Program-made: the position numbers and the translations under genes
In this document: positions 11,393-28,498 of the stretch, piece after piece
How positions within the stretch are numbered: position 1 is the stretch's first letter
How the letters are laid out: each line of letters opens with the position of its first letter
Notes under the pieces: model-generated
What the model was told of the DNA's origin: nothing
The model's database searches: none
The model's input: the letters and a program-made list of their open reading frames with translations, nothing else
Assembly (NCBI GenBank): GCA_021298455.1
Contig: JAJTFR010000017.1
Location: 1 to 34,192, forward strand
Direction of reading: 5' to 3'
DNA from: Sphingomonadales bacterium
Lineage (GTDB): Bacteria; Pseudomonadota; Alphaproteobacteria; Sphingomonadales; Sphingomonadaceae
DNA: 34,192 nt

Positions 11393-11773
11393 TCACAGAC
11401 TATAAGGAATGCGGATACCCGGCATTTCAGCAGGGAAGCCCTTTGTATTTCGTGTAACCAATACGCGGCCACGCGTTAGAGCGGTCGCTAATATGACGGC
11501 ATCGGGCGACTTAAGACGCGGTCTTTCGCGCCGCAACGAGGCGGCCCGAGTAGCGATCTCGTCATCAAGCTCATCAATCCCAAAGCCTGACAGAAAACGC
11601 TCTGCGCGCTTTAAGCCCTCGCCAGAGCCTTTGGACAGAACCTCAATCCAAACCATCCGGCTTACCCATACCCTACCGCCACGCTCAACTGCGCGACGAA
11701 ATTCCGAATGCGCCTGCGGAAAGCCCCGCAGCGCATCGATTATGATATTACTGTCAAAGGTAAAGCCGCTCAC
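11393..11773 (-). CDS. vapC: VapC-type PIN-domain toxin
   Basis: The 126-residue PIN-domain ribonuclease has the expected acidic active site: Asp7 (FDSN), Glu44 (WIEVL) and Asp91 (SPDAVILATA), with Asn109 in VTRNTKGF at the fourth position. VapC toxins cleave specific RNAs, often tRNA, when freed from antitoxin. The start is GTG, overlapping the antitoxin stop (GTGA), so the pair is translationally coupled. Confidence 0.9.
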   Translation of the reverse strand: MSGFTFDSNIIIDALRGFPQAHSEFRRAVERGGRVWVSRMVWIEVLSKGSGEGLKRAERFLSGFGIDELDDEIATRAASLRRERPRLKSPDAVILATALTRGRVLVTRNTKGFPAEMPGIRIPYSL

Positions 11774-12201
11774 CTTTTCGCGTGCTTCTTTTTTGGTCCG
11801 CGATCCTTATCGCCGACAATGTCCCCAGCCTTATCGAGCGCGAGACAACCGTCGTCTGGTGCCTTGCCATGCTTGGCATACCAAGCCTTGTGGAGTTCAT
11901 GCTCACGATCATCTTGCTCATCAAACAGATCCGGAAACTCGGCACGCACTTCCTCATAATCAGCATCCCAGGGGCGAGTCCACGAAGCCCGCTCCCGCCT
12001 TTGCCACTCGACCGAATCGCCTATATCGGTGCGGTCTTTCCACGCCCCAAAGCCTGCCTCCAGCCAGTCGAGCGTAGCATCTGCGCGATAGGCTTCAACC
12101 GCCTCGCGTAACACAGCCGCGCGCGACTTGCCCTGCTCGGCGGCGAGCTGGTCGAGCCATTTGATGGCTTCATCTGGCAGATCGGCGAGGATGCGAGTCA
12201 T
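11770..12201 (-). CDS. ribbon-helix-helix antitoxin (VapB-type) with long acidic/basic tail
   Basis: The first 45 or so residues (MTRILADLPDEAIKWLDQLA, SRAAVLREAVEAY) are a CopG/RHH DNA-binding domain. A toxin-neutralising segment follows (AGFGAWKDRTDIGDSVEW). At 143 residues it is longer than the 70-100 typical for such antitoxins: the tail is first acidic (about 80-100) and ends very basic (KKKHAKR). The tail is open in frame up to the toxin start, so it could be an extension gained by loss of an earlier stop. The ATG at 12201 sits next to AT-rich palindromes that look like its own operator. Confidence 0.85.
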   Translation of the reverse strand: MTRILADLPDEAIKWLDQLAAEQGKSRAAVLREAVEAYRADATLDWLEAGFGAWKDRTDIGDSVEWQRRERASWTRPWDADYEEVRAEFPDLFDEQDDREHELHKAWYAKHGKAPDDGCLALDKAGDIVGDKDRGPKKKHAKR

Positions 12202-12208
12202 GATATAC

Positions 12209-12231
12209 TGATATCATATCATGATATCATG
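12209..12231. promoter_or_regulatory. AT-rich palindromic operator of the vapBC pair
   Basis: Nested palindromes begin 8 bases upstream of the antitoxin ATG: TGATATCA (12209-12216), the perfect 12-mer ATATCATGATAT (12216-12227) and the perfect 10-mer ATGATATCAT (12221-12230). The run is strikingly AT-rich for this genome. RHH antitoxins normally bind such repeats and repress their own operon. The last codons and stop of the upstream glmU fusion lie inside the element. Confidence 0.65.
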
Positions 12232-13808
12232 TCAACCTTGTTTGATTTGCCAAACAGATACGCGACCACGACTAATGCGACATAAGCGGCATATGGAAAT
12301 AACAGTAAGATCATGAAGCCGATGGCCATCCCGGCGTCTCCAGTTCCAAGATCTCTTGGCACCTGTTGCCATAATGGCGAAGACCACGCGACATAAGGAA
12401 CAATGATCAGCGCAGCCAAAATAGAACGCGCGACCCATTTACGAAACTTTAGTCCGACAAAATATCCCAAGACAATAAAAACAGCAGGCATCGCATCGTG
12501 GAAGCGATCTGCCCAGCCGGGTTTCACCATTTGCTCGGCGCGCACCATGCGAAGTTCGCCGTCGGCTACATCGCGGCTCACTGCACTGCCCGCCGCGACA
12601 ATCGCATCCCGGCCAATCTTCACCGGGGCAATCAAGGCGCTGTTCGATCCGATGAACGCCCCCTCGCCGATCACCGTCTTATATTTGAAATAGCCATCAT
12701 AATTGCAGGTGATCGTGCCAGCCCCGATATTCGCGCCCGCGCCGATTTCAGCGTCGCCCAGATAGGTCAGATGGTTGGCCTTTGCGCCTTTTTTCAGATG
12801 CGCTTTCTTGGTTTCGACGAAATTGCCGATCTTCGTCTTTTCTTCCAGCACAGTCCCAGGGCGGAGGCGAGCAAAGGGGCCGACTTCGGCTCCGCTGGCA
12901 ATGCTGGTGCCTTCAATATGGCAATTGGCGCGGATCTTCACATTGTCAGCCACCGACACACCGGGGCCAAAAAAGACATTGGGTTCGATCAGCACATCGC
13001 GGCCAATCGCCGTGTCATAGGAAAACCAGACTGTGTCTGGCGCAGTTAAAGTCGCGCCATCGTCCATAGCCTGCGCCCGGCGGCGAGCCTGCCATTCGCC
13101 TTCCATCTCTGCCAATTGCGCGCGGCTGTTGATGCCGGCAACATCGAAAGGATCGGTGGCTACCGCCACACAGGCCCTTCCATCGGCATTGGCGATGTTG
13201 ACGATATCGGTGAGGTAATATTCCTTTTGCGCATTATCGTCGGTCACCCGGGCGAGCAGCGCGAACAAGTCCGCAGCCTTCACCGCCATCAGGCCGGAGT
13301 TGGACAATTTGACTGCCTTTTCGAGGTCCGTCGCATCCTTCTGCTCGACCATCTTTACGATCTTGCCACCCTCAACGATCACACGACCATAGCCGGTGGG
13401 ATCTTCAGGCTCGAACGCCAATACCACTACGGCGGGCGCGTCCACGCCATTCAGCCGATCAATCATTGCCTGCATCGTCGCTGACGGCACGAAAGGAACA
13501 TCGCCATAAAGGATCAATACATCGCCATCGAAACCTGCCAGCGCACCCTCAGCCTGCTGCACCGCATGGCCCGTGCCAAGCTGCGGTTCCTGCACCACGG
13601 TTTCGGCACTGCTACCCAGCGCGTCCCGCAACTGGTCCGCCTTGTCACCGACAACGACGACTTTCTTGGCGGGCGAAAGCGCATCAACGCTTGCCATCAA
13701 ATGCATCAGCATCGGCCGGCCAGCTATCGGGTGCAGCACCTTGTGCAGATCTGATTTCATGCGGGTGCCCTTGCCCGCGGCGAGGATGACGGCAGCAATT
13801 TTGTTCAT
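12219..13808 (-). CDS. glmU: GlmU bifunctional enzyme with C-terminal membrane extension
   Basis: GlmU acetylates glucosamine-1-phosphate and then forms UDP-GlcNAc. Residues 1-230 are the pyrophosphorylase (LAAGKGTRMKS at 9-19, QLGTGHA at 76-82, YGDVP at 101-105). Residues about 250-440 are the left-handed beta-helix acetyltransferase (RLRPGT 314-319, NYDG 369-372). The normal protein ends near residue 450, as here at GWADRFHDAM (431-440). The frame then continues 89 residues with about three hydrophobic segments (VFIVLGYFVG, SILAALIIVPYVAW, and a long one at about 493-519). Residue 440 is an ATG (12491) that could have been the start of a separate membrane-protein gene. No ribosome-binding site is visible before it, so a deletion fusing the two genes is likely. 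The last three codons lie in the vapBC operator. Confidence 0.93.
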   Translation of the reverse strand: MNKIAAVILAAGKGTRMKSDLHKVLHPIAGRPMLMHLMASVDALSPAKKVVVVGDKADQLRDALGSSAETVVQEPQLGTGHAVQQAEGALAGFDGDVLILYGDVPFVPSATMQAMIDRLNGVDAPAVVVLAFEPEDPTGYGRVIVEGGKIVKMVEQKDATDLEKAVKLSNSGLMAVKAADLFALLARVTDDNAQKEYYLTDIVNIANADGRACVAVATDPFDVAGINSRAQLAEMEGEWQARRRAQAMDDGATLTAPDTVWFSYDTAIGRDVLIEPNVFFGPGVSVADNVKIRANCHIEGTSIASGAEVGPFARLRPGTVLEEKTKIGNFVETKKAHLKKGAKANHLTYLGDAEIGAGANIGAGTITCNYDGYFKYKTVIGEGAFIGSNSALIAPVKIGRDAIVAAGSAVSRDVADGELRMVRAEQMVKPGWADRFHDAMPAVFIVLGYFVGLKFRKWVARSILAALIIVPYVAWSSPLWQQVPRDLGTGDAGMAIGFMILLLFPYAAYVALVVVAYLFGKSNKVDMIS

Positions 13809-13936: not shown

Positions 13937-14608
13937 ATGACTGATTTTCCATTCGCTATCGTTGGGTTTGATCTCGACGGAACCTTGCTCGACAGCAGCT
14001 ATGAACTGGCAGCATCGCTCAACCATGCGCTGGCCAGCATTGGCCGCCCTCCGATCGCAACCAACGGTGTGAAGGCACTGGTCGGGATGGGCACACGGCA
14101 TATGCTGCAATTGGGGCTGGAACAGTCAGGCGGTGCAGACGATGAAACGGTCCACGCCCTGCACCCGGTACTGGTAGAACATTATCGCGCAAATCTGGGC
14201 AGCAATTGCCCGCGCTTTCCGGGCCTGGAAGCAGCGCTGGATCAACTGGCAGCGACGGGTGCGAAGCTGGCGGTGGTCACCAACAAGTTTGAAAACTTGG
14301 CGGTCGAACTGCTTGGCAATGTAGGGCTGGCCGACCGTTTCGCGACCATCATCGGTGGCGACACAATGGGAAAGGGCAATGGCAAACCAAAGCCCGACCC
14401 GATCCACGAAATGATCCGGCGCTGCGGTGGTGGCCCAGCCGCCTTTGTCGGCGACACGATCCATGATGTGCACGCCGCGCAAGCCGCGGGCATCAAAAGC
14501 ATCGCCGTCAGTTTTGGCTTCCTTGATCAACCCGCCGAACAATTGGGCGCCGATGCGGTAATCGGCCATTATCAGGAATTGTTCGACACGCTTCAGCGGC
14601 TTGGCTGA
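13937..14608 (+). CDS. gph: HAD hydrolase, phosphoglycolate phosphatase-like
   Basis: The 223-residue HAD phosphatase has motif I FDLDGTLLDSS with the nucleophile Asp, motif II VVTNK, Lys in KPKPDP, and motif IV FVGDTIHDVHAA. The best match among common family members is Gph, which removes phosphate from 2-phosphoglycolate; other small phosphates remain possible. The start is uncertain: I used the ATG at 13937 (MTDFPF), with others at 13925 and 13883. It is divergent from glmU, and its 3' end overlaps the convergent nucleotidyltransferase gene by 16 bases. Confidence 0.85.
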   Translation: MTDFPFAIVGFDLDGTLLDSSYELAASLNHALASIGRPPIATNGVKALVGMGTRHMLQLGLEQSGGADDETVHALHPVLVEHYRANLGSNCPRFPGLEAALDQLAATGAKLAVVTNKFENLAVELLGNVGLADRFATIIGGDTMGKGNGKPKPDPIHEMIRRCGGGPAAFVGDTIHDVHAAQAAGIKSIAVSFGFLDQPAEQLGADAVIGHYQELFDTLQRLG

Positions 14609-15699
14609 CCTTTACGCCATTTCACCCATAAATGCCGCGCCAACATCAGCGGCGGCATGCGCAGCAGGTGCGAGCGGATGTAGAATATCAGCCGAAGCCA
14701 TTTGCGCGTCGGCCGCCCCCAGCCGTCACGTGCGGTGAGGCGGTGGATGAAGAGATAGTCGGTGAATGCAAGCCGTTGCTGTTTTGGATAAACATGGGTT
14801 CCATAAAGATGGTGCGAAAGACGTGCAGCACGCATCACCGATGCATATAGATGACGGCACCCGGGCGCAGCGTAGATATCATGCCAGTATTTTCCGCTGG
14901 TGCGGTTCTGCATTTCGTTGGCAATACAATGGAAATCCCACAAGTTTCGGAGACCGCCGGTAAGGTCGCCGTCTGCGATCAAATGCGCGGCGCAATGGCA
15001 AAGAATGTCGTGTGGCGACAAAATATAGGTCTTGCCTGGTTGGAAGGGCGTGGGCAGCGGATAGCGATAATCAAGATCATCGTCAGGATGTTCAAATTGC
15101 TCAGGAAGCGGCAGCGCAACCGCGCAATCCAACATCCCTGCGGCATCCGGCGTCGGCCGCGCGGTCAGCGGCAAAATCGTATGGTGCACGTCGATCATCC
15201 GGTCGCGCTCTTTATGAATCATCGGGGGGAGTTCGTGCATATGGTCGCGGTAATAGGCGTCGTCATAGGCGTCTTCCTTCACCCATTCCCAGCCGCCTTT
15301 GTCCAGCAACAGCGCCTCCACCTGCGGCAAATCCTCACGCGCTACCATGATGTCGAGGTCGCCAATCGATCTGCCGTCACCGGCAAGCAGCCCAGCGGCG
15401 GCATAAGCAGTGCCCTTAAGCAGCACGACCTTGCCGTGATAGCCCGCCAAAGCGCGCCGGGCGCAATCGGCCTCCCAAAGCGCGGACCGCCGCTGATATT
15501 CTGCGTTGATCTGCGCTTCGGCTAGGATTTCTGCGACGTTCGAAGGCACTGACTCAAATTTGAGTCGCGCTGCCAAGGTACCGATAAGCTGCTCGGCACG
15601 CGCCATGGTGAGCAGATCGGTCCAGCCACGCGCATCAAGACTGGCCGTCGATGCGGGGTGGCGGAGCGCATCGACAAGGAGCATGGCATCGCGCTTCAC
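14593..15699 (-). CDS. nucleotidyltransferase family protein (PF14907-like)
   Basis: The protein has 368 residues from a GTG at 15699 that overlaps the kinase stop (GTGA); an in-frame TTG lies at 15714. The nucleotidyltransferase signature LLKGTAYAAAGLL followed by GRSIGDLDIMV places the metal-binding Asp pair at Asp114 and Asp116. This pattern fits the uncharacterised 'nucleotidyltransferase 5' family (PF14907). Members occur beside HprK-like kinases in some peptide-modification clusters, such as certain lasso-peptide pathways. A basic, Trp-rich C-terminus (KWLRLIFYIR, HLWVKWRKG) may touch membranes. It is the last gene of the four-gene cluster; its substrate is unknown. Confidence 0.8.
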   Translation of the reverse strand: MKRDAMLLVDALRHPASTASLDARGWTDLLTMARAEQLIGTLAARLKFESVPSNVAEILAEAQINAEYQRRSALWEADCARRALAGYHGKVVLLKGTAYAAAGLLAGDGRSIGDLDIMVAREDLPQVEALLLDKGGWEWVKEDAYDDAYYRDHMHELPPMIHKERDRMIDVHHTILPLTARPTPDAAGMLDCAVALPLPEQFEHPDDDLDYRYPLPTPFQPGKTYILSPHDILCHCAAHLIADGDLTGGLRNLWDFHCIANEMQNRTSGKYWHDIYAAPGCRHLYASVMRAARLSHHLYGTHVYPKQQRLAFTDYLFIHRLTARDGWGRPTRKWLRLIFYIRSHLLRMPPLMLARHLWVKWRKGQPSR

Positions 15700-16550
15700 G
15701 GCAGGTCGCCCCAAAGCTGCTCGACCAGCGCAATGGCCTCTTCACCGCTTTCATAATCGATCGCCAGAGCCGGCACCGACTTCACAAAACGGGTCAGCGC
15801 CGTAAATCCTGCCTCGCCTAGGGCGACATAGTTGGTCGACGCCTGCGTCAGCCGCATGAAGGTTTCCCCGGCCGCCACGCTGCGCACCGCCCTTGGTTCG
15901 CCAAAGCGCGGAAAGAGCAGCAGCGCCGGTCGGCCGCCCTCCCCCATGCGTGCAATGGCATCAGCAGGCGGCACCATGTGGCGGATATCGCCTTTAGGCG
16001 TATCCCGCATCAACGGGCCAAAGAGCGCGTCTGGCCGGGCCGCCTCCATCGCTGCAATCGCGCTATTCTTTAGGCTGATCAACCGCAGAAAGGGCATGAT
16101 GTCGCCGCTCAACGGATCAAGCAGCACAAATTCGTCGCCCAGAAAGCGCCAGCCCCGGCAGGACAGCAAAGCCGCAAGCGTCGATTTGCCCGACCCGGAT
16201 GCGCCGGTCATCACCAGAACACGCCCGTCGCGCTCAACCGCGCTGGCATGAAGGAGCAGGTGGCGCCGCCAGCCAAGCGCAACTTGCAGGTTCATCGCCA
16301 TTTCAGCGGCGAGCAGCCCCTGCGAAAGCGGCAAGGGCGCGGCATCGGGCAGCATATAGTCGCCCTTGATCGCTACCGATGGCCGCAGCCAGCGCCGCAG
16401 CCGGCTGGCAGCTTCCAACCGCACTGTGAAATCGACATATTCCGGTCGCGGATAACCGGCATAGAGCGCGGCCATCCGCTCGATCGGCGCACGCCATACC
16501 GAACCGATGCGAAATGCGGCGGGGCCGATGCGGACGTGGAATTCATGCAC
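15696..16550 (-). CDS. HprK-related kinase A
   Basis: The 284-residue protein resembles the C-terminal kinase domain of HPr kinase/phosphorylase. It has a P-loop GASGSGKST (116-124) preceded by a conserved His101 (LLLHASAVERDG, like the HprK HG motif) and followed by LGDEFVLLD with Asp139/Glu140, equivalent to the catalytic acidic pair. It lacks the N-terminal HprK domain. This matches the NCBI family 'HprK-related kinase A', part of an uncharacterised HPr-rel-A system. The start is GTG at 16550, overlapping the PqqD-like gene by 8 bases. No HPr or PTS gene is in the window, so the substrate is probably a peptide or protein from its own cluster (inference). Confidence 0.85.
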   Translation of the reverse strand: MHEFHVRIGPAAFRIGSVWRAPIERMAALYAGYPRPEYVDFTVRLEAASRLRRWLRPSVAIKGDYMLPDAAPLPLSQGLLAAEMAMNLQVALGWRRHLLLHASAVERDGRVLVMTGASGSGKSTLAALLSCRGWRFLGDEFVLLDPLSGDIMPFLRLISLKNSAIAAMEAARPDALFGPLMRDTPKGDIRHMVPPADAIARMGEGGRPALLLFPRFGEPRAVRSVAAGETFMRLTQASTNYVALGEAGFTALTRFVKSVPALAIDYESGEEAIALVEQLWGDLP

Positions 16551-16845
16551 CGGACACGCGCTCCACTAGGCCCAGATCGGCCAGTTCTTCCAGACGGATG
16601 GCAATCAGTGCAACGGCCTCGGCACGCTTGCCAAGGTCGAACTGAGTTGCCAGCCGCGCCGCGAGCGTTGTCGCGTCGACCGCATCGTTGCGCATGGCGG
16701 CAAGCATCTGCGGCACCGGCTCTGTCACCATATGGGTGACCCCGGAACGGCGCTGATAGATAAGCGTCAGCATATCGAGCGGGTCGACAATAAGGCTGTC
16801 GGCGGGTTCTGCTTGGTAAAGTTTATCGGTCGCGGCCACGGCCAA
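16543..16845 (-). CDS. PqqD-like protein of the HPr-rel-A system
   Basis: About 100 residues with a PqqD-type pattern: a beta-rich start (SLIVDPLDMLTLIYQRRSG), a central helix (PVPQMLAAM) and a winged-helix-like end (LEELADLGLVERV). PqqD proteins bind leader peptides of ribosomal peptides and hand them to modifying enzymes. The partner genes directly downstream are the kinase and nucleotidyltransferase. The start is weakly defined: a TTG at 16845 or a GTG at 16839, and no good ribosome-binding site is seen. It lies 37 bases after the Tat-exported protein gene. Confidence 0.75.
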   Translation of the reverse strand: MAVAATDKLYQAEPADSLIVDPLDMLTLIYQRRSGVTHMVTEPVPQMLAAMRNDAVDATTLAARLATQFDLGKRAEAVALIAIRLEELADLGLVERVSGA

Positions 16846-16882
16846 GGCGTAACGCGTTGCCGTTAAAATTCAATCCACTCAA

Positions 16883-17284
16883 TCAGCGGGGCATTTGCAA
16901 CGATGCAAAACAGGTAAAGCCGCTCTGCCCTGCCTGCAGCCGGCGGATATAATTCACATAGGCCTGGCTTTGTTCATAGCTCGTACCCGGCAGGGTCCTG
17001 CCTGATAAAGCCCGCTTCACTTCTTCGCCGGTAAATTTCTGGCCGGTGGCAACGAATGATCCCGGCGTATCAGGCGGAACCAGCTTGCCCGCAGCATCAA
17101 TATTCATGCCTGTGCCATGCGGCCCGGGAACAGGGATCTGACAGTTAAGGACTGAGCCAGCCGTCTGCGCCAGCGCCGGACGGACCGAGACGATTGCGGC
17201 GACACCGGCCGCGCCAAGCATCAGAGCCCGACGGCTGGATCCACTCGCTTTGTTCGCGTCGCTATTACCCTCGTCACCAGTCAT
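16883..17284 (-). CDS. Tat-exported small protein heading the HPr-rel-A cluster
   Basis: The 133-residue protein has a Tat-like signal: SSRRALMLGAAGVAAIVS followed by RPALAQ, with likely cleavage after Ala-Gln-type residues near 40. The mature part, about 93 residues, is Pro/Gly-rich early (CQIPVPGPHGTGMN), has YVNYIRRLQAG later, and holds two Cys that could form a disulfide (near SVLNC and GFTCF). I do not recognise the family. AAGGAAAATGC precedes the ATG. As the first gene of the cluster it is a candidate substrate or exported effector of the PqqD/kinase/nucleotidyltransferase set; this is inference from position only. Confidence 0.75.
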   Translation of the reverse strand: MTGDEGNSDANKASGSSRRALMLGAAGVAAIVSVRPALAQTAGSVLNCQIPVPGPHGTGMNIDAAGKLVPPDTPGSFVATGQKFTGEEVKRALSGRTLPGTSYEQSQAYVNYIRRLQAGQSGFTCFASLQMPR

Positions 17285-26821: not shown

Positions 26822-28498
26822 CTATCTCTGCGATTTGGCAACAACAGCCGCGTTTTGGGTTCGGTCTTCAACTTCAGGGTAGCTGTGCCACAAACTGCCT
26901 AATGCCGACTTTAACGGGTCGAGCCATTTTTCATAGGCGCGCCATTGATCGACACCGTCGCGATTGATCGGACGGCGCACCTGTTCACTCGATGCCGTGC
27001 GGACTGCGCGGCGGTTTTCATGGAAGTTGAGGCACGCCTCTTCAAACGGCACGCCAACATAGTCGAGCATTGCCCGCACATGCACCTCGGGTTCCTCGAT
27101 CAGCTGTTCATGGATCACACGATGTACCCGACCGGGAAGCACGCGATCAATATGTGCCATCAACCGGACATAATCGGCATAATAGCGCCCCATGTCGGAT
27201 AGGCTGTAACTGAATGCCTGTCCCTTGGCGAAATGCTGGCGGAAATTGGAAAAGCAGCAGTCAAGCGGATGGCGCCGCGCATCAATGATCTTCGCATTGG
27301 GCAAGATCAGGTGAATAAGGCCGGTGTAGATCCAGTTGTTCGGAAGCTTGTCGATAAAGAATGGACGATCCGTCTTGCGCTGAACGCGGGTGCGGTTCAG
27401 AAAATCGTCTCCCAGTACAGCCAAACGGTCTGCCGACATCTGGACAACAGCGTCAACCCAACCGCTGGCCACGCCCTTGCCCTCGCGAAGTGCAATTGCC
27501 GGCATGTCGGGCAACTCCATCGTGCCTTCGATCAGGCTATGGCTCGCCAATATCTGTTCAAGCAGCGTTGAACCTGCCCGCGGCATTCCCAGGATGAAAA
27601 TCGGATCGGCAGCGCCCTCTTCCAGATTGGAACGGTTGGACAGGAATTCTGGGGTGAAGCGCGCGATAATCGCATCGACATGCGCGGTAATGATGTCGGG
27701 ATCATATTCCAGTTGGCCGTGCCTTATCCGGTTCGCCTGGTCATAATGGCCAAATGATGCCTCCGCGTCGCGCCGGTCGTCATAAGCCTTGCCCAGCGCA
27801 AAATGCAAATGCAGCCGATCATCGTCGGAGAGGCTATCGCCGCTGTTCAGCGCATCTTCCATGGCGGCGATATCGGCGGCGTCAAATTGCACCGTTTTCA
27901 GATTGGCAAGGCTCCACCAGACTTCGCCCAACGTCGGCTCTTCGGCAATCGCGCGCCGGTAGGCAGCAATGCCTTCGTCCTGCTTGCCAACGGTTTTCAA
28001 CACATGGCCATAGCTCATCCAAAGCTTTGCATGCTGCGGGAACCGCTCAGTCAACGCGCCATAAAGTGTCAATGCCTCGTCATATTCGCCAATACGGCCT
28101 AGCGCGGCAGCCATCAGGCTCTGCCCGCCGGCATCATCACCTTCAGCGGCGAGGACGTCGTTCAACAGCTCGACCGTCTCTTCAAACCGGTTCTGCCGAT
28201 ACAATATGCCGGCAAGATTGCTCCGCGCGACAATGAAATCCGGCGCGAGTTCGAGCGCACGCCGGAGCAGTGCCTCACTATCCTTATATCGCCCGAGCCG
28301 CGCCGCCAGTTGCGCCATCAGCCGGATCGCAGCGACATCCAGCGGATCTTGCCGCAAATGGGCACGCAATAACGGTTCGGCATCCGCCAGCCGGTCTTCG
28401 TTGATCGCCGACGCCGCTTCGATCAGGTCGGGATTGCGGATGCCACGGTTGACATAGCGACTGACCGGATCGGTGGATTGCGGGATCATGGACGCCAT
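26822..28498 (-). CDS. TPR-repeat sulfotransferase
   Basis: The 558-residue protein has tetratricopeptide repeats over about residues 25-260 (EPLLRAHLRQDPLDVAAIRL, SEALLRRALELAPDF), then a sulfotransferase domain. The 5'-phosphosulfate loop is GMPRAGST (304-311), and the 3'-phosphate site is DARRHPLDCCFSNFRQHF (about 406-423). It is expected to move sulfate from PAPS to an unknown acceptor, with the repeats perhaps binding it. The start is 28498, or 28489 with a second ATG; no clear ribosome-binding site is seen. It begins 2 bases after the recF stop, so coupling to recF is likely. Confidence 0.9.
   Translation of the reverse strand: MASMIPQSTDPVSRYVNRGIRNPDLIEAASAINEDRLADAEPLLRAHLRQDPLDVAAIRLMAQLAARLGRYKDSEALLRRALELAPDFIVARSNLAGILYRQNRFEETVELLNDVLAAEGDDAGGQSLMAAALGRIGEYDEALTLYGALTERFPQHAKLWMSYGHVLKTVGKQDEGIAAYRRAIAEEPTLGEVWWSLANLKTVQFDAADIAAMEDALNSGDSLSDDDRLHLHFALGKAYDDRRDAEASFGHYDQANRIRHGQLEYDPDIITAHVDAIIARFTPEFLSNRSNLEEGAADPIFILGMPRAGSTLLEQILASHSLIEGTMELPDMPAIALREGKGVASGWVDAVVQMSADRLAVLGDDFLNRTRVQRKTDRPFFIDKLPNNWIYTGLIHLILPNAKIIDARRHPLDCCFSNFRQHFAKGQAFSYSLSDMGRYYADYVRLMAHIDRVLPGRVHRVIHEQLIEEPEVHVRAMLDYVGVPFEEACLNFHENRRAVRTASSEQVRRPINRDGVDQWRAYEKWLDPLKSALGSLWHSYPEVEDRTQNAAVVAKSQR

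Follow-up and report, generated by a model that had tools for sequence, protein, structure and literature searches.

In lasso peptide clusters, kinases of the HprK type phosphorylate a C-terminal Ser, for example in paeninodin, and in pseudomycoidin the nucleotidyltransferase PsmN puts one or two hexoses on the phosphate of the peptide; lasso clusters with a kinase are reported from Proteobacteria too (review PMC8498205). In the system of linear polyphosphorylated peptides (LPP) a recognition element (RRE) for ribosomally synthesized and post-translationally modified peptides (RiPPs), an HprK-like kinase and a nucleoside triphosphate (NTP) transferase occur together, often in capsular polysaccharide loci. 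A SipW-like peptidase and an MsbA-like exporter belong to it as well, its leader carries a YxxP motif, and the authors describe the system as restricted to Bacillota (Popov et al., 2026, PMC13381572). Its kinase LppK phosphorylates a single Ser of the LppA precursor, with one to four phosphates added (PMC13381572). A further set of enzymes, the HPr-rel-A system, is named by two NCBI models, TIGR04352 for the kinase and TIGR04353 for the PqqD-like protein. In the open-access literature we found no paper on HPr-rel-A or on an HprK-related kinase, no function assigned to them in print, and no paper on PqqD together with exosortase or combining two of PqqD, HprK and a twin-arginine translocation (Tat) signal; the words HPr, kinase and twin are likewise absent from the RRE-Finder paper's main text. 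Here we analysed a cluster of the HPr-rel-A type in contig JAJTFR010000017.1 of a Sphingomonadales bacterium (assembly GCA_021298455.1; the whole stretch of 34,192 nucleotides is called the window). While the enzyme families were already known by name, we propose that a small Tat-signal protein encoded beside them is the substrate of this LPP- and phospho-lasso-like set.

The cassette consists of four minus-strand genes, which run from position 17284 down to 14593 in the order Tat protein, PqqD-like protein, kinase and nucleotidyltransferase, with the following features:

16883..17284, minus strand: small Tat-signal protein of 133 residues, the proposed substrate because of its co-presence with the kinase.
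17168..17236, minus strand: twin-arginine signal from Arg17-Arg18 to Ala-Leu-Ala37-39, read from the sequence; R18 is invariant in 33 members.
16901..16915, minus strand: Thr124-Cys125-x-x-Ser128 near the C-terminus, with Ser128 as proposed phosphate acceptor; C125 and S128 are invariant in 33 members selected for the motif.
16543..16845, minus strand: PqqD-like protein (RRE-type, TIGR04353), a proposed precursor adaptor.
15696..16550, minus strand: HprK-related kinase A (TIGR04352).
16179..16205, minus strand: kinase P-loop GASGSGKST, with S118, G119 and G121-T124 invariant in 18 relatives.
14593..15714, minus strand: PF14907 nucleotidyltransferase; translation may equally well begin at a GTG at 15699.
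15352..15360, minus strand: DxD of the nucleotidyltransferase, Asp114 and Asp116 (numbered from the GTG start), probably catalytic and invariant in 38 relatives.

This cluster is real and is built as the original prediction had described it. The other three genes overlap: the PqqD gene shares 8 bp with the kinase gene, and the kinase gene shares 4 bp with the nucleotidyltransferase gene if the latter begins at GTG and 19 bp if it begins at TTG. The Tat gene lies 37 bp upstream of the PqqD gene (TTG start). The predicted family names were borne out by a search of the NCBI families: the kinase scored 234.6 bits against TIGR04352 HprK_rel_A (cut-off 200), the adjoining PqqD-like protein 55.0 bits against TIGR04353 PqqD_rel_X (cut-off 35), which places both in HPr-rel-A, and the nucleotidyltransferase, with its DxD present, 142.7 bits against PF14907 (cut-off 31.2). 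The kinase P-loop, predicted to be intact, is so, with its SGxGKST residues, the preceding His and the following Asp-Glu pair invariant across 18 kinases; across 38 nucleotidyltransferases the DxD (D114, D116) and one later Asp are invariant. A PDB sequence search with the kinase alignment returned HprK entries and, more weakly, general P-loop proteins, and the same search with the nucleotidyltransferase returned no entry. When the best 80 of 343 relatives were considered, those nearest to the kinase that carry a name were Sphingorhabdus-type Sphingomonadaceae.

The NCBI models name the enzymes, whereas the Tat protein of the window has no NCBIfam or Pfam match and 33 scanned members gave no meaningful NCBIfam match. 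It belongs to a fast-evolving family without a name, whose members go with the kinase. In a sample of 61 genomes of the order (the window's own, 36 genus-mates and 24 others), a kinase family member was found in 32: 31 passed the cut-off, and the one in G041 reached 187.8 bits with almost the full model aligned. Searched with a Tat-protein profile, the same 32 genomes gave a strong match and the 29 others gave none, and PF14907 was found in 31 of the 32, the exception being G056, where the contig ends. The neighbours are thus conserved together, as the original prediction presupposed, so that the refutation which it foresaw for neighbours not conserved together does not apply. Among 398 Pseudomonadota genomes, the kinase was above its cut-off in 61 and a class I Tat protein (E <= 1e-6) was present in 51, of which 50 belong to these 61; this search scored only the first candidates of each genome, so misses are possible. 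G124, the 51st genome with the Tat protein, has a diverged cluster (L231, contig C20, 5249-9306) of a Tat protein, a radical SAM/SPASM enzyme, a PqqD (PF05402, 37 bits; cut-off 23.4), an HprK-like kinase with 62 bits, below the TIGR04352 cut-off, and a PF14907 gene (106 bits). Of the eleven kinase genomes lacking a class I match, ten have a class II Tat-signal protein by the kinase and the eleventh (G249) is 57% complete. Within the taxonomic class the kinase is rare outside the order (8 of 289 genomes above cut-off).

Operon neighbours may travel together without joint function, and therefore the loci in which the genes are split matter. One such genome is G004, where the genes for PqqD, kinase and nucleotidyltransferase lie near 2.36 Mb and no neighbouring Tat gene was found; the Tat gene, its motif intact, is located at 0.98 Mb, 1.2-1.4 Mb from the kinase on the same contig. 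The Tat gene is 164 kb from the kinase on one contig in G274 and on a contig other than that of the kinase in G129, G141, G185, G328 and G082, and in G245 an additional Tat gene lies apart from the kinase. In five of these eight split places (G129, G185, G245, G082, G328) a PqqD gene adjoins the Tat gene, which favours PqqD as the adaptor of the Tat protein; PqqD is with the kinase in G004 and G274, and in G141 none was found by the Tat gene. Genome G245 also contains a natural fusion of the two enzymes (L201:8968-11085), a single open reading frame (ORF) of 706 residues with TIGR04352 at 20-299 and PF14907 at 354-608, which implies that kinase and nucleotidyltransferase act together.

The twin-arginine, the hydrophobic stretch and the AxA site are all visible by eye in the window's Tat protein, which the NCBI Tat model TIGR01409 did not match at E <= 1. 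Class I Tat proteins outside the genus share 14-33% identity with it, and in an alignment of 33 diverse members, picked because the motif is present, only three columns are invariant: the Tat arginine (R18), Cys125 and Ser128. Within a set of 120 non-identical Tat proteins, collected by a hidden Markov model (HMM) of the signal and rich in close relatives (55 read TCYASL), Cys-x-x-Ser lies in the last 50 residues of 109, in 108 of them as [ST]CxxS, and a median of 5 residues follows the motif Ser. A Tat-like ORF with a Cys-x-x-Ser-type ending was found upstream in 104 of 136 non-identical kinase loci versus 2 of 597 control windows, with a loose ending pattern (Thr allowed too) and a tail limit of 40 residues for the loci and 35 for the controls. 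Because the Tat-like test by itself is weak (119 of 136 loci versus 137 of 597 control windows), only the combined test was used. The signal HMM matched 125 of the 136 loci, with four matches above 8 bits elsewhere in the loci; since it was seeded from the same loci it is circular and was not used as support. Of the eleven loci that it missed, L184, L209 and L214 have the Tat protein on reading, L196 has the gene on the opposite strand, L097 and L217 are at contig ends, and in L054, L198, L199, L205 and L211 the Tat gene is elsewhere in the genome.

How the PqqD-like protein might recognise its partner may be hinted at by the signals themselves. Outside the window's family, 34 of 42 signals carry the pattern P-x-x-x-[TS]-hydrophobic, versus 1 of 29 general Tat signals, two sets that were chosen differently (the general set being the best TIGR01409 matches, with 30 loci taken, 29 read and identical signals dropped). 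It is possibly a PqqD handle outside the window's family. A universal handle was ruled out, since the Pro is missing in the window's family (0 of 43). The model of the Tat protein has a mean predicted local distance difference test score (pLDDT) of 71, with block values of 86-92 for residues 61-130, and its fold had no PDB match at E <= 0.001; structure thus gives no function. Two members, in L042 and L060, have long Asp-rich runs inserted into the mature part. The class II proteins beside the kinase, which lack the C-terminal Cys-x-x-Ser, were seen in L181, L183, L184, L197, L203, L209, L210, L212, L214 and L215, and several of them have a common Cys and an SPGxW-like motif instead.

Compared with the described systems, the cassette shares with LPP a discrete RRE, an HprK-like kinase and an NTP transferase encoded together, and neither has a macrolactam cyclase. 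LPP is a Bacillota system, whereas here the enzymes are in Pseudomonadota and the proposed substrate has a Tat signal; the YxxPxVLxHQ leader motif is absent from the window's Tat protein on reading, and a Pfam scan of 28 window genes found no SipW-like or other signal peptidase, no MsbA-like or other ATP-binding cassette (ABC) exporter and no lasso cyclase. In the LPP paper we found no occurrence of Tat, twin-arginine, exosortase, Proteobacteria or Pseudomonadota. The phospho-lasso peptides paeninodin and pseudomycoidin share with the cassette the kinase, the nucleotidyltransferase and a Ser near the C-terminus, but differ by their cyclase. The lasso leader peptidase B2 (PF13471) has no match in the window's genome, which is 78% complete, and this peptidase is found in 7 of the 61 genomes of the order sample. 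In one genus-mate (G036:C63:24180-34778) two weak HprK-like matches lie close to a PF14907 gene and to a PF13471 peptidase, which from their sequences is possibly a phosphorylated lasso-type cluster. The original prediction had noted that kinase-nucleotidyltransferase pairs decorate some lasso peptides, in agreement with the lasso and LPP precedents (PMC8498205, PMC13381572).

The chemistry of the last enzyme was approached by structure. The AlphaFold model of the nucleotidyltransferase has a pLDDT of 91; Foldseek gave no match at E <= 0.001, and in a second structural comparison MenT1 was the top match (Z 11.9, root mean square deviation (rmsd) 2.9, 178 residues aligned), with ANT(2'')-Ia at Z 9.6 (rmsd 3.6, 166 aligned) and FKRP far weaker at Z 5.4 (rmsd 4.4, 155 aligned). 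As the nearest folds, MenT1 and ANT(2'')-Ia, are nucleotidyltransferases, the model would favour nucleotidyl transfer, without settling it.

Many of the loci lie among genes for exopolysaccharide. Gene neighbourhoods were compared in 47 loci, of which 40 came from the phylum and class samples and 7 from the order; 15 of the 47 hold a glycosyltransferase cluster and 16 an amidotransferase cluster. By family models, L182 and L183 hold XrtA glycosyltransferases, amidotransferase, deacetylase and FemAB protein, as well as a tyrosine autokinase, a chain-length protein, PrsT, PrsR and PrsK. An exosortase was found in 12 of the 13 kinase genomes from the order outside the genus. Kinase and exosortase are no more than 15 kb apart in 10 of these 12, and the remaining two carry the kinase on contigs 5 and 19 kb long. 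Within the genus the exosortase is not close to the kinase, yet it is present in 19 of 19 kinase genomes versus 1 of 18 without the kinase. Over the whole order sample the figures are 31 of 32 kinase genomes versus 7 of 29 others, and in the phylum sample 32 of 61 versus 47 of 337. Genome G066 (L182) has seven XrtA-type exopolysaccharide genes above cut-offs beside the cassette and no exosortase match; thus the tie may perhaps be to the polysaccharide itself. In the window's own genome, XrtA-locus genes are on contig C75, where the exosortase (G000:C75:775-1567) is matched in two parts that differ in reading frame and lie next to unknown bases.

From the gene content, conserved motifs, co-inheritance, retention when unlinked, fusion and locus setting, we infer a protein-modification cassette that encodes its own substrate, an explanation that as a whole we hold to be slightly better than even. 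The contact made by PqqD, every chemical step and the role in the envelope are deductions from sequence. The PqqD-like protein would hold the precursor of the Tat protein, probably via the unusual signal peptide; that the Tat protein is the substrate is, on this comparative evidence, very probable. The kinase would then phosphorylate the Ser that is conserved in [ST]CxxS close to the C-terminus. Because lasso kinases target a C-terminal Ser and LppK one precursor Ser, Ser128 is by analogy the best candidate acceptor, and we lean modestly towards it. The PF14907 enzyme would cap the phosphate with a nucleotide, or with a sugar as in pseudomycoidin, and the chances that a cap is indeed added to a phosphate on the motif Ser seem to us evenly divided. 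The folded, already modified protein would be exported by Tat and would function in the cell envelope, most likely alongside exopolysaccharide, a role for the cassette that might equally well hold or fail. TorD-type chaperones for the maturation of Tat redox enzymes shield the signal peptide before export (PMC8428690). If PqqD likewise covered the signal until modification is complete, it would resemble TorD, by analogy only, since PqqD is of another family and acts with a kinase. The original prediction of a phosphorylated and then capped peptide or protein was right in direction; it had not singled out the Tat protein as likely substrate, the Cys-x-x-Ser or the exopolysaccharide setting. It is tempting to speculate, although we regard it as unlikely, that a RiPP-type toolkit was turned onto folded Tat proteins, with the signal doubling as leader and the capped phosphate joining the protein to exopolysaccharide.

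Several observations weigh against this explanation. The class I profile was built from kinase neighbours, and its matches in kinase genomes are therefore partly built in; the absence of the Tat protein elsewhere and the unlinked cases carry the weight. The Cys-x-x-Ser is missing in 11 of the 120 Tat proteins, one of them apparently frame-broken (L124) and ten of other types, so that this Ser cannot be the acceptor everywhere, and the motif could instead be structural. LppN was inactive in the single heterologous test reported (PMC13381572). No exosortase match was obtained in 29 of the 61 kinase genomes of the phylum sample, and a glmS marker tree of 56 genomes, which warns of long branches, holds only three well-supported independent exosortase changes; the kinase changes the same way in 2.7 of the 3 on average and never the opposite way, too small a number to reach significance (p 0.25). 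An exosortase as obligatory partner was dropped on the phylum counts and the three tree changes, and is kept as an association. Alternatively, the Tat protein might be a working partner of enzymes whose target is a glycan, lipid or sugar of the envelope, and would bind or use their product outside. Such a partner would suit the many loci among exopolysaccharide genes and near exosortase, and co-inheritance is compatible with it too. A peptide chaperone of the PqqD family is hard to explain without a peptide substrate, however. The PqqD gene adjoining the Tat gene in five of eight split places, and a Ser conserved close to the C-terminus like the one phosphorylated in lasso precursors, also speak against a mere partner, which we consider rather improbable.

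Two further explanations fare much worse. Regulation of the HPr type by an HprK paralogue could draw on the distant similarity to HprK in the P-loop region, but the kinase scores 17.5 bits against the HprK family (cut-off 240) and is tightly tied to PqqD, Tat and PF14907 genes instead, which makes such regulation very improbable. A phosphate-starvation module of the Pho regulon is suggested by the phoR-pst-like genes that the cassette adjoins in many Sphingomonadales loci and by a phosphate-selective porin nearby in the window. However, all five of the five genus-mates lacking the cassette keep phoR-pst by gph-glmU-glmS; adjacency to phoR-pst thus reflects a conserved site, from which all four genes are missing together in these genomes. 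A Pho-box gave no general signal in 93 upstream regions (the best score, out of 14, was 8-10 for 89 regions and 11 or 12 for the other four; among 40 of the 93 rows, most scores were reached by shuffles), and the loci from the phylum sample mostly have other neighbours. A Pho module, to which we give hardly any credence, was rejected on the identical flanks of the cassette-less genus-mates.

Elsewhere in the window, GlmU (12219-13808) has 529 residues compared with 447-476 in most relatives called complete, and carries an additional hydrophobic C-terminal part. Between glmU and glmS lies a gene pair of a ribbon-helix-helix and a PIN-domain protein (11393-12201), which genus-mates have too and which, we presume, resembles a toxin-antitoxin pair. 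A tetratricopeptide repeat (TPR) protein at 26822-28498 bears a sulfotransferase domain.

In summary, this study provides a concrete candidate target for an enzyme set whose kinase occurs in 61 of 398 sampled Pseudomonadota genomes. If the proposal is true, RiPP-style modification would extend to Tat-exported proteins, a quality-control use of PqqD on the Tat signal would be suggested, and PF14907 capping enzymes would be tied to exopolysaccharide biology. Potentially, if the capped phosphate joins the protein to exopolysaccharide, Gram-negative bacteria would have a new type of protein-glycan linkage.

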